Source: Deltaproteobacteria bacterium GWA2_38_16 | Lineage (GTDB): Bacteria > Bdellovibrionota > JACOXK01 > 2-02-FULL-40-11 | DNA: 64,000 bases | Assembly (NCBI GenBank): GCA_001797335.1 | Contig: MGPE01000001.1 | Location: 62,001 to 126,000 of the forward strand | Direction of reading: 5' to 3' | Shown here: positions 9,632 through 37,426 of the stretch, piece after piece | Layout: each line of letters starts with the position of its first letter | How positions within the stretch are numbered: position 1 is the stretch's first letter | Translations under genes and position numbers: made by a program | The notes under the pieces: generated by a model | What the model was told of the DNA's origin: nothing | The model's database searches: none | Seen by the model: the letters and a program-made list of their open reading frames with translations, nothing else

Positions 9632-9750
9632 AAGGAGTTCTTATCTTTTCTGAGAGAGTCTCTCGGAGGGCGAGCGAGCCTGAGAGTGAAGCGCGAATTT
9701 TTCGCTGGGAAAATTCGACGCGGCTCTCGAAGAAACGATAAGAACTCCTT
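9632..9750. repeat. Family 1 palindromic element, copy A (intergenic)
   Basis: 119-bp palindrome between queE and radA. Perfect 14-bp terminal arms: AAGGAGTTCTTATC (9632-9645) and GATAAGAACTCCTT (9737-9750). Inside, a weaker stem and a second hairpin (GCGAATTTTTC / GGAAAATTCGACGC) are visible. Same interior as the copies in tonB (32684-32801) and in front of btuB (37233-37375). Much of it is open on both strands, so it can be read as protein. It fills most of the 240-bp gap before radA. Confidence 0.9.
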
Positions 9751-31606: not shown

Positions 31607-32464
31607 ATGGTCTTTCAAATGATGAAAAAAGTTCTTTTGATAATGCTTTTTCTATATTCTCTGGCCGAAGCGCAAGAGCTAGAAGGCACGCGTGGCATTG
31701 GGCTTAGTGGAGCGCTTCGAGGTACCGTGGGGCTCAATGAATCGATTTACTATAACCCTTCCGCATTTGCATTTTCCCAACGTTATTCTATAGAGGCGCA
31801 ATCTTTTTTCCTTCCCTCTCAAAAAGGAGAACCTTCCAGATGGGTTTATAGTGGCTCAGTTGTGGATTCTCATAATGAATTTTTTGCAGCAGGTCTGGGG
31901 TATTACCGAAAAACAAAAGAAGGCCGAGAGGGCAAAGAAGCGGAAAATGGATATCACTTGGCGCTTTCTAAAATTTTGGCTCCTTATTGGGCCATGGGAG
32001 TTACTGGAAAATATATTCATATCAATCGGGCTATTTCAGATAAACAACTTTTTAATATGGATATTGGAAATTTTTTAGTGTTAACGCCAGCTATTCAAGT
32101 GGGCTTGACAGGACATAATATATTAGGAAGTCATGAGGATATCCCAGGAAAAATACAAAGAAAAATAGGGCTGGGAGCCAGAATCCAAACATGGAAATTT
32201 TTATATACTTCTATAGATGCTCTAAAAGTACTTCAAGGGGATACAACCCAAAATGTATCACTTCACAGCGCCTTAGAAGTTGTGCATGAAAATGGAGTGG
32301 TATTTCAATCGGGATTTTCTATGTCCGATCAATCTTCTCAAAATCTGTATGGTTTTGGTATGGGATGGTCTCAATATAAATTTGGAGCATTTTACGCGTT
32401 TCAAAATTCAATGGATAGCCTACGGCGAAACACTCACGCGCTTTCTTTGAGAGTATTCTTTTAA
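31607..32464 (+). CDS. Exported beta-barrel-like protein (PorV/TraF-type)
   Basis: Up to 285 residues; translation probably begins at one of the methionines before KKVLLIMLFLYSLAEAQ (31619 or 31622), which gives a signal peptide. The mature part has the GIGLSGALRGTVGLNESIYYNPSAF opening typical of outer-membrane barrels of the PorV/TraF/PmpR-like group, alternating amphipathic strands, and a terminal phenylalanine (SLRVFF) as in BAM substrates. Function unknown. The last 45 bp overlap the convergent tonB gene. Confidence 0.65.
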   Translation: MVFQMMKKVLLIMLFLYSLAEAQELEGTRGIGLSGALRGTVGLNESIYYNPSAFAFSQRYSIEAQSFFLPSQKGEPSRWVYSGSVVDSHNEFFAAGLGYYRKTKEGREGKEAENGYHLALSKILAPYWAMGVTGKYIHINRAISDKQLFNMDIGNFLVLTPAIQVGLTGHNILGSHEDIPGKIQRKIGLGARIQTWKFLYTSIDALKVLQGDTTQNVSLHSALEVVHENGVVFQSGFSMSDQSSQNLYGFGMGWSQYKFGAFYAFQNSMDSLRRNTHALSLRVFF

Positions 32465-32896
32465 TTTAAAATGAAAGGGAGGAAGTTCCAGCCATGTCAT
32501 CGTGGTAAGGGGAGGAGTCCAATTTTTGATAGCTTCTAGGATGGATTGATCGAGAAGCTCATGTCCGGTGGATTGTTTAAACGAAATTTCTTTTACTGTA
32601 CCGTCCTTTGATATTTTTACTTTCACAATGCCGATGCCTTCTTGTTTTAGCTGAATGGCCAGCGGGGGATAAAAAGGAATGGGAAGAGAGGTTCTTATCG
32701 TTTCTTCAAGAGCCGCGTCGAATTTTCCCAGCGAAAAATTCGCGCTTCTCTCTCGGAGCGTTTTCCGAGAGACTCTTTCAGAAAAGATAAGAACTTCTCT
32801 TTTCAGTAAAGCCTTTTTATTTCCTTCAGGAACTTGCAACAGCAACAAATGTAGAGCAAGAGAAATAAAAAAATATAGGAATAATTTATTTTTCAT
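32420..32896 (-). CDS. tonB: TonB energy transducer with repeat-derived linker
   Basis: 158 residues from ATG 32896 ([20 protein letters not shown]). The anchor helix contains the SxxxH motif (S12, H16) that couples to ExbBD. The C-terminal domain is typical: FYPPLAIQLKQEGIGIVKVKISKDGTV and ILEAIKNW. Between them, residues about 32-71 are encoded by palindromic element copy B (32684-32801). TonB proteins normally have a Pro/Glu/Lys-rich spacer here; this one has a basic, Ser/Arg-rich segment. No exbB or exbD is in the window. Overlaps the 3' end of the ATPase gene by 11 bp; last gene of the B12 operon. Confidence 0.88.
   Translation of the reverse strand: MKNKLFLYFFISLALHLLLLQVPEGNKKALLKREVLIFSERVSRKTLRERSANFSLGKFDAALEETIRTSLPIPFYPPLAIQLKQEGIGIVKVKISKDGTVKEISFKQSTGHELLDQSILEAIKNWTPPLTTMTWLELPPFHFKLKEYSQRKRVSVSP
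32684..32801. repeat. Family 1 palindromic element, copy B (inside tonB)
   Basis: 118 bp, inverted relative to copy A. Arms AAGAGAGGTTCTTATC (32684-32699) and GATAAGAACTTCTCTT (32786-32801), 15 of 16 positions complementary. The interior matches copies A and C, with a few changes and without disrupting the tonB frame. It supplies 40 of TonB's 158 residues. Confidence 0.92.
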
Positions 32897-33638
32897 ACAC
32901 AGCCTGCACTTTAAGTCGAACATTAAAAACACGATAAATCATCTCTTCTGTCAGAAGCTCTTCTGCTTTTCCTTGAGCAAAAATAGAGTGATTTTTTATG
33001 AACACTATTTCTTGGCTAAAATGTCTGGCTAATCCTAGATCATGAAGCACCATCACCAGCGTTAACTCTCGTTCCTTTTGAAGCCGCTCCAGTAACGAAA
33101 GGATTTCAAGTTGATACTTCAAATCTAAATGTGCCGTTGGTTCATCTAAGAGAATAATGCGAGGGGTTTGCGTAAGAGCTCGAGCGATGAGCACGCGTTG
33201 TTTTTCTCCACTCGAAAGTGTGTGAAAAAATCTGTTTTTAAGATGAAATGTGTCGGTGGACTTTAAATTCATTTCTGCACACTCTCTATCTTCATGAGAT
33301 TCAAAAGAAAGGCCTGTTAAAAAAGGTGTCCTTCCCATTAAAACAAAATCAAAAACAGAGATTGCATACACGGGCTCAACCCCTTGTGGAACATAAGCTA
33401 AGGTTTGCGCAAACTCTTTTAGTGAAATTGAGTGGAAGGGTTTTTCATAAAGCCACAGCTCTCCTTCTTGAGGATGAAGCAATTTTCCCATGAGTTTTAA
33501 CAAGGTGGTTTTTCCCTCTCCGTTGGGGCCCAAAATAGAAAGCCAGGAATTTTTTTGAATGGTCAAAGAAATATTTTTTAAAAGAGGAATGTTAGTGTAA
33601 GAAAACGAGATATTTTTAAGTTCTAAAGATTGAGTCAT
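32886..33638 (-). CDS. btuD: Vitamin B12 ABC transporter ATPase (BtuD-type)
   Basis: 250-residue ABC ATPase. Walker [15 protein letters not shown]-loop [10 protein letters not shown], signature [15 protein letters not shown], Walker [15 protein letters not shown], and the H-loop [12 protein letters not shown] are complete. The Walker A has Glu-Gly rather than the usual Ala-Gly before GKT, a mild change. Start at 33638 ([14 protein letters not shown]) overlaps the permease stop by 4 bp. Placement with btuC, btuF and btuB suggests cobalamin; FecE-like siderophore transport is the alternative. Confidence 0.87.
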
Positions 33639-34600
33639 GTAGATTTTTTCCACAAGATTATTAAAAAAAGTGGTGCTCCAATAAGCGTTGTTAAAACACC
33701 AATGGGAAATTCTCGGATAAAACAGGTTCGAAGCAGGGTGTCCATTAAAAGTAAAACCCAGCTCCCAATTAAAAAATTTAAGGGGAGCGTAAGTCTATGG
33801 TCTCCTCCCCACAGAAGACGAACAAAATGAGGGACCATGAGTCCTATAAACCCAATCATTCCAGAAAGAGAAACTGCTAAAGCAGTTAAGAGAGAAGAAA
33901 GAATGAAAAAATAATGTTGGGTAGACGTAATGGAAAGCCCCAGGGCATGAGCACTCTCTTCTCCTAAATTTAAGAGATTTAAGGCATAAGCTTTTTTATA
34001 GAGAAGATAAAAAAGAAGAAAAGTCCCAGATAGTGAGAGTAGTATGAAAAAAAGCGAGAAAGGATGAGACAGCCCCCCCATGAGCCAAAAAAGAAGGGTG
34101 GCTCCTTCAAAGGGTTGGGCAAAGCTTAACACAAGCGTGACAATAGATGAAAAAAGAAAACTTAATAGTACGCCAGTCAGCAATAAAAAATGAGACGAAG
34201 TGGAAGCATATTTTTGTGCAGCACGAGAAATAATGAAAATAGCAATAAAAGCACTCATAAAAGCACAGATGGGAATCATTCCAAAAGGAAGATGAAAGAC
34301 AAAAGCTAAGACTGCACCCAAGGAACTGGCAGAAGAAATGCCTAGGATGTAGGGATCGGCCAAGGGATTTTTTAAAATAACTTGCATGACCGTGCCGCTC
34401 GTGGCCAAGGCTCCTCCCACCAAAATGGCCAGTAGAATTCTAGGAAATCGAAGTTGCCAGATAATGTGGGAAAGTTCTACGTTCCACAGCTTTTGAAGGG
34501 GTACAAAAGCAGTTCCCAAACATAAAGAGAAAATTCCTGTGCCAATCAGAATAATGAAAAAGAGTAAGGATAAAAAAATAATTTTAAAACGAAGGTTCAT
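33635..34600 (-). CDS. btuC: Vitamin B12 ABC transporter permease (BtuC/FecCD family)
   Basis: 321-residue FecCD-family permease with about ten helices. LRFPRILLAILVGGALATSGTVMQVILKNPLADPYILGISSAS is the family hallmark (only part quoted: VGGALATSGTVMQVILKNPL), with GMIGFIGLMVPHFVRLLWG and the C-terminal PIGVLTTLIGAPLFL also present. Overlaps btuF by 17 bp and btuD by 4 bp. Forms the inner-membrane channel for the substrate delivered by BtuF. Confidence 0.9.
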   Translation of the reverse strand: MNLRFKIIFLSLLFFIILIGTGIFSLCLGTAFVPLQKLWNVELSHIIWQLRFPRILLAILVGGALATSGTVMQVILKNPLADPYILGISSASSLGAVLAFVFHLPFGMIPICAFMSAFIAIFIISRAAQKYASTSSHFLLLTGVLLSFLFSSIVTLVLSFAQPFEGATLLFWLMGGLSHPFSLFFILLSLSGTFLLFYLLYKKAYALNLLNLGEESAHALGLSITSTQHYFFILSSLLTALAVSLSGMIGFIGLMVPHFVRLLWGGDHRLTLPLNFLIGSWVLLLMDTLLRTCFIREFPIGVLTTLIGAPLFLIILWKKST

Positions 34601-35432
34601 GAATTTTTTTAGAAAGCGCGGTTACTCCTTCTATAAATCGAGGGGTGGCACGTGTCAGTAAATCTCCAGAAATAATATAGATGCGCTTCCCCTTCCAGAG
34701 AGCTTTCATCCTTTTTACTTTTTCTTCTTGTCCAGAAGTTTCAGGGATAATGATGATGTCTGGGTTTAATTTTAAGAGCACTTCTCGTTGAAGTTTAGGA
34801 TAACCTTGATAAGAAGAGGTTATGTTTAGACCACCCGAAAGTTCAATGGCTCGATGGGGAAGTGTATTTTTTCCTGCCACCATCAAAGGGACTTCTTCAA
34901 TTTGAATAAGAACGCGTGGTTTTTGAAAATCCGAGGTATGTTTTTGAATGTGAGCAAGATTTTCTTTCATGTTTTTTATCAATGAACGAGCTTTTTCGGC
35001 TTTATTAAATTTTTTTCCTAGAGTGAAAAGCGTTGCATAGATGTCTTTTTCTGTTTGGGCGGGAAAGGATAAAACTTCTATTTTATTTTTTTGAAGTGTT
35101 TGTAATAGTTCGGCTGGGGTGGCCCCTTCTCTAGCTAAAACAGTAGAAGGATGTAGGAAAAGAATTTTTTCGATATTGGGGGAAATAAAACTTCCCACTA
35201 TTGGAAGTTTTTTGGCCTGAGGCGGAAAATCACTGTACTCAGACACAGCCACAAGGTGATCCTCCAGATTTAGAGCATAAACCATTTCTGTTAGATCCGG
35301 GGCGAGGGAGATGATTTTGGGAGCAGGAGAAGCCAAGGCATGAAAAGACAGAAGAAAAAATAAAAGCAGTAGTAAGAAAGAGTAGATAAGGACCCCTTTC
35401 TTAAAAGCACCGGTTATTTCTTTTTGCTTCAT
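34584..35432 (-). CDS. btuF: Periplasmic cobalamin-binding protein (BtuF-type)
   Basis: 282 residues with an N-terminal membrane or signal segment (LIYSFLLLLLFFLLSFHALA). KIISLAPDLTEMVYALN, AVSEYSDFPPQAKKLPIVGSF and IEKILFLHPSTVLA match the BtuF/TroA helical-backbone binding fold; the YSDFPP motif is especially BtuF-like. It captures the substrate in the periplasm. Shares ATGA with the btuB stop. Confidence 0.87.
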   Translation of the reverse strand: MKQKEITGAFKKGVLIYSFLLLLLFFLLSFHALASPAPKIISLAPDLTEMVYALNLEDHLVAVSEYSDFPPQAKKLPIVGSFISPNIEKILFLHPSTVLAREGATPAELLQTLQKNKIEVLSFPAQTEKDIYATLFTLGKKFNKAEKARSLIKNMKENLAHIQKHTSDFQKPRVLIQIEEVPLMVAGKNTLPHRAIELSGGLNITSSYQGYPKLQREVLLKLNPDIIIIPETSGQEEKVKRMKALWKGKRIYIISGDLLTRATPRFIEGVTALSKKIHEPSF

Positions 35433-37426
35433 AGCGCCCCACTTATGCTTACATTAAATGTCCGCCCTGGCATCGGATAATAAGCAATTCTCTCATACGC
35501 TTTATCTAAAAGATTATCAGCATGTGCGGTAACGGTCAGAGCTGGCGATAGTTCATACGAAGCCCCCATTCCCAAAAGATGTACCGGAGAAAGTTTGGGC
35601 CTTGAAACCGTTTGAGTTAATACAGAACTTAAGAACTGATGATCTAGAGAAATTTTAAATGCGTTAAATTGTACCTGAAAAGATGAATTCACCAGATGCT
35701 GTGGCCTGTGGGGAAACAGCTTATTAAGCCATGTATAATTTAATGCGGTGTGGGAGTTTAAAAAGAACGGAAGATCCGCTTCCAAAGATAATTCATTTCC
35801 CCACAGAGCTCTTTGGTCCAAATTTTCGACCGTAGATACTTGATCCGTAATATCTTTTTTTGAAATTAAGTTTTTTATGTCTGATCTAAAAAGAGTATTT
35901 TCAATCTTCGTATTTAAAAAGGGAAATGTTGTACTAAATCCAATATCTTCGCTCCAAGACGTTTCAGGTTTTAAAAGAGGGTTCCCTGTATAATAGGGGT
36001 CTTGCCAATAAAGTTCACTAAAAGAAGGGGCTCTAAAATTATGAGAGAGGTTAGATTTGATATAAAATTTAGAAAAGGGTTCATATGTTGTCCCTATTTT
36101 AGGAGTGACTGCCGTATAAATATTAGAGCGTTCAAATCGAACCACAGGTATAAATAATAATGATGGATGTACATAGAAATTGTCTTTTAAAACTGCTGCC
36201 AGCGCTGTGCGTTGAGGACGAGAAGGCATGGCATCGCTTTGAATAAAATCCATATTTCCCTGGGCAAGGGCTGTGACTAAGTGGCGAGATCCCAGGGGGA
36301 ATGCATAAGAAAGGGTGGGTTCGAGATGAAAATTTTTATGAGTAGCCTCATAAGTTTCTACGGCATATTTTAAAAAATCTTGTCGATATGGGAGGCGTAC
36401 GGTGAGGGTGTGCTGCTGGGGAAGAGAGAATGTTCCGTCTAAGGTGGCAAGAAAACGATAGTCTTTTTTAATCCCATCCGATGGCCAAATAATGGGACCG
36501 GGAACATGCTGATGGGCCCATAAAAATTCTTGCGTTAGGGAAAATACAGTATGAGGGGTAACTTCCCATAAAGATTTTGCTAAAAAACCTTTGGATTGGA
36601 ATTGATTATTAATTCTTTTTTCTTTTTGGTGGGTCAGAGGATGTGTATACACATAATCTGATTTATCTTTTTGGGAATGAATATTTAAAAGCATATGAAG
36701 AGATTTCCATTTTTGACCCATCGTGAGGGTAAGTTTATGGTCATTAAAATGGGTTGTATCAAAAGAGTTTTTTGAAAAATTATAGCTTAATTGAGGTTTA
36801 TTTTTAAGAGTCACAATATTGATAACACCCCCAATAGCATCAGAACCATAGAGGGCGGATTCTCCTCCGCGAATAATTTCTATTTTTTCAACCTGTGACA
36901 GAGGAATGCGAGACAAATCCACTCCTCCTCCTTGGGCAGAGTTTAGACGAATGCCATCCATGAGGACTAAAACGTGTTCTGCTTTTTCTGAAATGCCTCT
37001 GATGTTGGCCGTGGTTAAAGATCCGGAAGACGATTCGCTTTTAATGATAACGCCTTTTTGGGTTTTTAAAAAATCAGCTACGGATTTTGATTGTTCAGTG
37101 CGCTGGATGGAAAGGATATTGACAAAAGAAGACAGCTGAGATGGTGCTAGTTCTTCCCCTAAAATTAAAATTTCATTTTGCCCGCCCTGGACAGACGGTG
37201 CACATAATAGAAGAAGAAGGGAGATGACAGTGAAAGAGTTTCTTATCTTTTCTGAGAGAGTCTCTCGGAGGGCGAGCGGGCCAGGTTCTGAAGGAGAGCG
37301 AGTCCGAGAGTGAAGCGCGAATTTTTCGCTGGGAAAATTCGACGCGGCTCTCGAAGAAACGATAAGAAACTCTTTCTTAGACAGGACCCGAGAAATATAG
37401 TTATATAATTGTACTGCGCAAATCAT
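35429..37426 (-). CDS. btuB: TonB-dependent outer-membrane receptor (BtuB-like)
   Basis: 22-strand receptor, up to 665 codons. Plug domain: SVADFLKTQKGVIIKS, ANIRGISEKAEHVLVLMDGIRLN, VEKIEIIRGGESALYGSDAIGGVINIVT. A barrel with a C-terminal alternating strand (RTFNVSISGAL) follows. The signal peptide core (SFTVISLLLLLCAPSVQG) lies at residues about 64-81. Residues about 18-64 are encoded by palindromic element copy C (37233-37375). No ATG, GTG or TTG that I could find in frame lies between the element and the signal peptide, so translation seems to start at ATG 37426 and run through the element, or at an unusual codon. Downstream: btuF, btuC, btuD, tonB. Confidence 0.85.
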   Translation of the reverse strand: MICAVQLYNYISRVLSKKEFLIVSSRAASNFPSEKFALHSRTRSPSEPGPLALRETLSEKIRNSFTVISLLLLLCAPSVQGGQNEILILGEELAPSQLSSFVNILSIQRTEQSKSVADFLKTQKGVIIKSESSSGSLTTANIRGISEKAEHVLVLMDGIRLNSAQGGGVDLSRIPLSQVEKIEIIRGGESALYGSDAIGGVINIVTLKNKPQLSYNFSKNSFDTTHFNDHKLTLTMGQKWKSLHMLLNIHSQKDKSDYVYTHPLTHQKEKRINNQFQSKGFLAKSLWEVTPHTVFSLTQEFLWAHQHVPGPIIWPSDGIKKDYRFLATLDGTFSLPQQHTLTVRLPYRQDFLKYAVETYEATHKNFHLEPTLSYAFPLGSRHLVTALAQGNMDFIQSDAMPSRPQRTALAAVLKDNFYVHPSLLFIPVVRFERSNIYTAVTPKIGTTYEPFSKFYIKSNLSHNFRAPSFSELYWQDPYYTGNPLLKPETSWSEDIGFSTTFPFLNTKIENTLFRSDIKNLISKKDITDQVSTVENLDQRALWGNELSLEADLPFFLNSHTALNYTWLNKLFPHRPQHLVNSSFQVQFNAFKISLDHQFLSSVLTQTVSRPKLSPVHLLGMGASYELSPALTVTAHADNLLDKAYERIAYYPMPGRTFNVSISGAL
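37233..37375. repeat. Family 1 palindromic element, copy C (in front of btuB signal peptide)
   Basis: 143 bp. Perfect 15-bp arms AAAGAGTTTCTTATC (37233-37247) and GATAAGAAACTCTTT (37361-37375). Same orientation as copy A but with about 24 extra bp in the interior, partly repeating the GGCGAGCG segment. Open through in the btuB frame. GACAGGACCC, the end motif of family 2, lies immediately next to it at 37380-37389. Confidence 0.92.

Follow-up and report, generated by a model that had tools for sequence, protein, structure and literature searches.

This locus raises the question of how a palindromic repeat comes to form the linker of a TonB protein, and of what has become of the gene and the repeat since. 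In the 64,000-nucleotide stretch of Deltaproteobacteria bacterium GWA2_38_16 analysed here (the window), tonB is the last gene of a minus-strand btuB-btuF-btuC-btuD-tonB operon, whose genes overlap one another, with tonB overlapping the stop codon of btuD (Table 1). Its own stop codon lies at 32420-32422, a small correction to the earlier reading of the ORF end, and the gene overlaps a plus-strand OMP-like gene (31607-32464) tail to tail by 45 bp (32420-32464). The product has an N-terminal anchor carrying S-x-x-x-H and a C-terminal TonB domain that scores well above the PF03544 cut-off of 24.6 bits; the element-encoded residues sit directly after the anchor and before this domain, where they make up the greater part of the flexible spacer. 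The initial annotation had placed the repeat at exactly these coordinates, and its description of the peptide as basic and Ser/Arg-rich also holds: the peptide, which includes KREVLIFSERVSR, contains R6, S5, E5, L5 and K3, has a net charge of +3 and lacks proline. The arms of the outer stem are 29 nt each and 86% complementary in inverted orientation. Folded as RNA, the coding strand of the element reaches -59.1 kcal/mol, whereas dinucleotide shuffles reach -32.2 (z -7.5), and at 118 bp it is a long-stem palindrome within the 100-150 bp class. An AlphaFold prediction of TonB made without an alignment had a mean pLDDT of 43, with the linker at low confidence.

Table 1. Coordinates of tonB, its palindromic element, the btu operon and further copies in the window, and of LpxB-LpxK fusion genes elsewhere in the class (given by locus)
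Feature	Location	Strand	Remarks
tonB reading frame	32420..32896	-	158 aa, ATG at 32896; PF03544, 46.1 bits
Palindromic element, 118 bp	32684..32801	-	codes TonB residues 32-71 (KREVLIFSERVSRKTLRERSANFSLGKFDAALEETIRTSL)
5' arm of outer stem (coding strand)	32773..32801	-
3' arm of outer stem (coding strand)	32684..32712	-
Inner hairpin 1 (CTCTCGG...CCGAGAG)	32750..32771	-	length varies among copies
Inner hairpin 2 (GCGCGAATTTTTCGCTGGGAAAATTCGACGC)	32715..32745	-	most conserved part of the family
btuD-like ABC ATPase	32886..33653	-
btuC-like FecCD permease	33635..34600	-
btuF-like periplasmic binding protein	34584..35432	-
TonB-dependent receptor (BtuB-like)	35429..37426	-	first gene of the operon
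Second window copy of the element	37240..37368	+	antisense in the N-terminal end of the btuB-like ORF, before a signal-peptide-like stretch
Third window copy of the element	9638..9744	+	between queE-like and radA-like genes
LpxB-LpxK single-frame fusion	L077:453-2915	-	element exactly at the junction; the four fusions are from four genomes
LpxB-LpxK single-frame fusion	L081:431-2854	-	element exactly at the junction
LpxB-LpxK single-frame fusion	L083:260-2746	+	element exactly at the junction
LpxB-LpxK single-frame fusion	L108:2-1660	-	element exactly at the junction

The element is a member of a family and not a chance palindrome. BLAST related it to two further copies in the window, one in btuB (matched over 37240-37373; 95.8% over 71 bp, E 2e-28) and one between genes (matched over 9633-9745; 88%, E 1e-36); inner hairpin 1 of the tonB copy is 27 nt shorter than its btuB counterpart, a difference that keeps the frame. 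Trained on five copies, a covariance model found eight in the genome, and after refinement it recovered the element in each of the class's eight genomes, at 5-40 copies per genome and about 94 in total. With stricter filters, it found none in the 283 other genomes of the phylum. Scanning the core pattern through GTDB genome contigs from 84,980 species, a search whose scope may not have included the source genome's own records, returned a single carrier, a groundwater Deltaproteobacteria MAG of the same class, and no match was found in viral contigs. The 77 copies that we aligned put the size of the other members at about 95-177 bp. One genome (G006) also holds a second, lower-scoring subfamily (GTCGTGTCGGAAGG...GACGCCGTACCC; L100, L106, L115, L119, L128, L130) with shared arms of its own, often near copies of the first type. 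Searched against RNA and protein family models, the element scored above the cut-off of none: Rfam searches of the whole window and of the element gave only weak miRNA-type hairpin matches, none near a gathering score, and no NCBIfam model matched the 41-aa plus-strand reading. We found no description of the element in the literature searched.

Dispersed copies are found, in frame, within genes unrelated to one another. No fewer than eight distinct sites inside genes are free of stops and in frame on both sides (TonB, a kinase, PurL, a PBP, PabB, the LpxB-LpxK junction, LpxB and a CtaA-like protein), and most of these sites are linkers. Domain maps place the element between the kinase domain and the transmembrane helix of a membrane-anchored Ser/Thr kinase, between the transpeptidase and PASTA domains of the PBP, and between Anth_synt_I_N and Chorismate_bind in PabB; in the LpxB-LpxK fusion it occupies the junction in four genomes, while in another genome it lies within LpxB. 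A fusion of these two proteins with no element at its junction occurs in G003 (L092). Overall, 28 of the 77 aligned copies lie inside reading frames of at least 160 codons that run through them. Read by eye, none of the other 49 breaks one gene into out-of-frame parts, and where two long frames flank such a copy, they belong to different genes. Several more copies, including the one in btuB, stand at the N-terminal end of exported proteins, immediately ahead of a hydrophobic stretch; the start codons at these sites are unsettled. In-gene copies have on average 2.6 of six frames open (1.7 in shuffles) and the others 1.8 (1.3 in shuffles); because the in-gene copies were chosen by openness, only the latter comparison fairly tests an intrinsic tendency to open frames. 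The tolerance to insertion that had been suggested for TonB is thus borne out in many other host proteins. The same PurL linker also carries other repeats, a tandem insert of the PTSLWRHCNSS type in G002 (L048) and one of the SVIASGSEAIPSPKVMRSPRF type in G006 (L050), and looks like a hot spot for repeats inserted in frame.

The arms and the core of the element have changed in an unusual way. Over the outer ~20 bp, the arms of most copies show nearly perfect pairing, but their sequence is not the same from one copy to the next. At orthologous sites the two arms have changed together: we counted 19 compensated against 2 single arm changes in the LpxB-LpxK fusions of G002 and G005, and 11 against 3 in a periplasmic protein of G005 and G004; PurL, with 8 double and 7 single changes, shows that some orthologous pairs are nearer even. 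The core is also inverted between orthologous sites. The PabB cores match at 83 of 102 positions when one is inverted and at 43 of 105 directly, and those of the LpxB-LpxK fusions of G004 and G001 at 87 of 109 and 45 of 108, respectively. Since the arms are reciprocal best matches within both pairs when 76 copies are compared, each pair points to one insertion that was later inverted with the frame kept. Core inversion is equally clear in PurL and in a periplasmic protein of G001 and G004, where the arms are not mutual best matches and separate insertions are possible. As a separate observation, two sites in G004 that are orthologous to element insertions (L187 and L181) hold a near-perfect inverted repeat of 20-23 bp with a short unrelated loop and no core; these could be remnants or terminators.

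Taking these results together, we consider it probable that the TonB linker is a class-specific palindromic mobile repeat of ~100-150 bp, with a long outer stem and two inner hairpins, which was inserted in frame, is translated, and had its arms and core reshaped by template switching. The palindromic repeat would have entered tonB in frame and become part of its product. Because the element tends to be free of stops in several frames, insertions would survive in linkers, either orientation adding a flexible stretch of 35-48 residues. After insertion, the DNA polymerase would switch template between the arms and copy one arm onto the other, giving arms that are nearly perfect and specific to each copy, and at times the same switching would invert the core. 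In coding DNA, DNA polymerase template switching is reported to cause both arm homogenization and spacer inversion (PMC8604942), and the same point is made for RNA hairpins elsewhere (PMC8794818); we infer that it is the best available mechanism for both features here.

The strongest competing idea, which we regard as possible though rather unlikely, is that selection keeps the arms paired because a folded form of the element, as RNA or as single-stranded DNA, is needed for mobility or regulation. The double changes at orthologous sites would be expected from such selection as well, and on the element strand G.T mismatches exceed A.C (63:24), an excess that is not decisive as a test for selection on RNA, and is perhaps inflated, since the copies are related. 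On the transcript strand of the in-gene copies, however, the two mismatches are equally frequent (14:14). Few intermediates are seen although the arms differ widely among copies, and core inversion is a by-product to be expected of template switching.

It may also be asked whether this tonB is a decaying gene in which the insertion is a tolerated loss, with another TonB-family protein doing the work, as the initial annotation had allowed for. Such a second protein does exist: a longer TonB/TolA-like protein with a Pro-rich linker (C1:136159-136992) is kept in seven of the eight genomes of the class, and the short TonB is clearly found only in the window's genome and in G003, a relative of a different genus. 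The G003 gene is syntenic (btuFCD-tonB-OMP-dksA-galU), and its product is 47% identical to the window TonB over 72 residues. The alignment with a relative's TonB that had been called for thus shows an ortholog with an ordinary linker, which measures 63 residues from the anchor H to the YPP motif, against 59 in the window TonB. With lengths so nearly equal, the element appears to have taken the place of an ordinary linker, although G003 is the only syntenic TonB without a linker insert and is too diverged to serve as an exact empty site. The earlier reading of a palindromic spacer in TonB therefore stands, with the refinement that the protein was not lengthened. In the C-terminal domain, the two genes differ at 29, 22 and 40 first, second and third codon positions over 73 codons, a pattern that fits purifying selection and speaks against the suggestion that the gene is not translated; the linker region, with 49, 40 and 45 differences, carries no such sign. 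Decay is improbable, given this third-position excess, the 158 open codons with an intact TonB_C domain, the conserved linker length and the place of the gene among overlapping operon genes. Alongside the conserved second protein, the window TonB may not be the sole TonB of the cell and may be dispensable. In G003, the tonB gene itself has another element at its 5' end (L135:2501-2677), beside a run of N that leaves the start of the gene uncertain, so tonB has received elements at separate positions in the two genera.

The dispersion of the family suggests that the element was mobile in the past. A Y1 transposase was considered as its general driver and rejected, being patchy over the eight genomes: it is missing from four (G001, G002, G005 and G006), one of which has 40 copies, and a REP/RAYT assignment, which calls for such a gene in the genome, does not fit. 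The window's genome (G000) has Y1 matches in two pieces, L139 and L143 (G000:C19:6497-6840), one with two stop codons and apparently decayed. Nor are there the constant terminal inverted repeats of MITEs, the arms being copy-specific and common to close copies only. This variation from copy to copy would also agree with each insertion making an inverted copy of part of its target, which would then be the source of the arms. We give this idea little credence: the recent copies L035, L036, L037 and L038 share inner arms with TTCTTAYC, and among the empty sites sought for ten copies, the readable one (L094 against L175 and L176) does not contain the arm sequence, the others being mostly too diverged for target duplications to be read.

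Finally, removal of the element from the mRNA as a self-splicing, intron-like RNA, the splicing raised earlier, is very improbable despite its strong structured fold and its presence in purL, pabB and other conserved genes, since every gene-internal copy is free of stops and in frame with both flanks, none splits a gene out of frame, and no Rfam intron family was found at cut-off. At the openness of the copies outside genes, we estimate that roughly one unselected insertion in ten would stay open throughout, which makes eight separate sites by chance very unlikely. The in-frame, stop-free copies argue for translation, the simpler reading because an intron would not need open frames.

The closest known kind of element is the protein-coding palindromes of Rickettsia and Wolbachia, and ours works like the Rickettsia palindromic elements (RPE; Ogata et al. 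2000, 2002; reviewed in PMC2229807 and PMC10969869). RPE are long-stem palindromes of 105-146 bp that form several families. They occur between genes and also, in frame, within numerous unrelated conserved genes, where they are translated, as reportedly tested for guanylate kinase (PMC2229807). Palindrome size, long stem, and in-frame insertion in unrelated conserved genes and between genes are common to both. The present element differs in its host lineage, groundwater Deltaproteobacteria and not Rickettsia; in its copy-specific outer arms, where RPE have a fixed terminal repeat; and in having its core in both orientations at shared coding sites. Neither copy-specific arms nor coding inversions are described for RPE in the literature searched, the primary RPE description lying beyond its reach. 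Membership by sequence was not found in a search of NCBIfam as a whole, which returned for TonB chiefly models of the TonB/TolA type, with none for RPE among matches up to E 1. Wolbachia, another bacterial genus, also has protein-coding palindromic repeats (Ogata et al. 2005, as cited in PMC2229807); their host lineage is unrelated, and the comparison here is by description. The MITEs ERIC/RU-1, NEMIS/Correia and YPAL are also short, non-autonomous repeats; they can become joined to genes in frame, and some of them supply parts of signal peptides (PMC2229807). The present element, unlike these, has no constant terminal repeat. No target duplication was seen among its empty sites, of which one could be read. 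We know of no partner transposase for it. Template switching in yeast likewise homogenizes arms and inverts spacers in coding DNA, the inversions changing 2-5 bp (PMC8604942), whereas here a core of ~100 bp is inverted and the gene stays open. Coding palindromes in the mitochondria of Nematomorpha are likewise perfect or near-perfect inverted repeats kept in translated genes (PMC6649704); unlike ours, they are not a dispersed bacterial repeat family. It is conceivable, and in our view a long shot, that the present element is a mobile element recognized by shape, its arms drifting freely while paired, which gives invertible linkers to essential proteins; core inversion could then switch a linker between two peptides with the gene kept open. 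Since orthologous sites differ in whether they hold the element and in which orientation, linker tolerance, arm homogenization and the inversion of coding sequence can be tested directly. Protein-coding palindromes were first described as a speciality of Rickettsia and later of Wolbachia; the presence of a separate family in an uncultured class far removed from them suggests that mobile palindromes can also be built into essential proteins of other bacteria.
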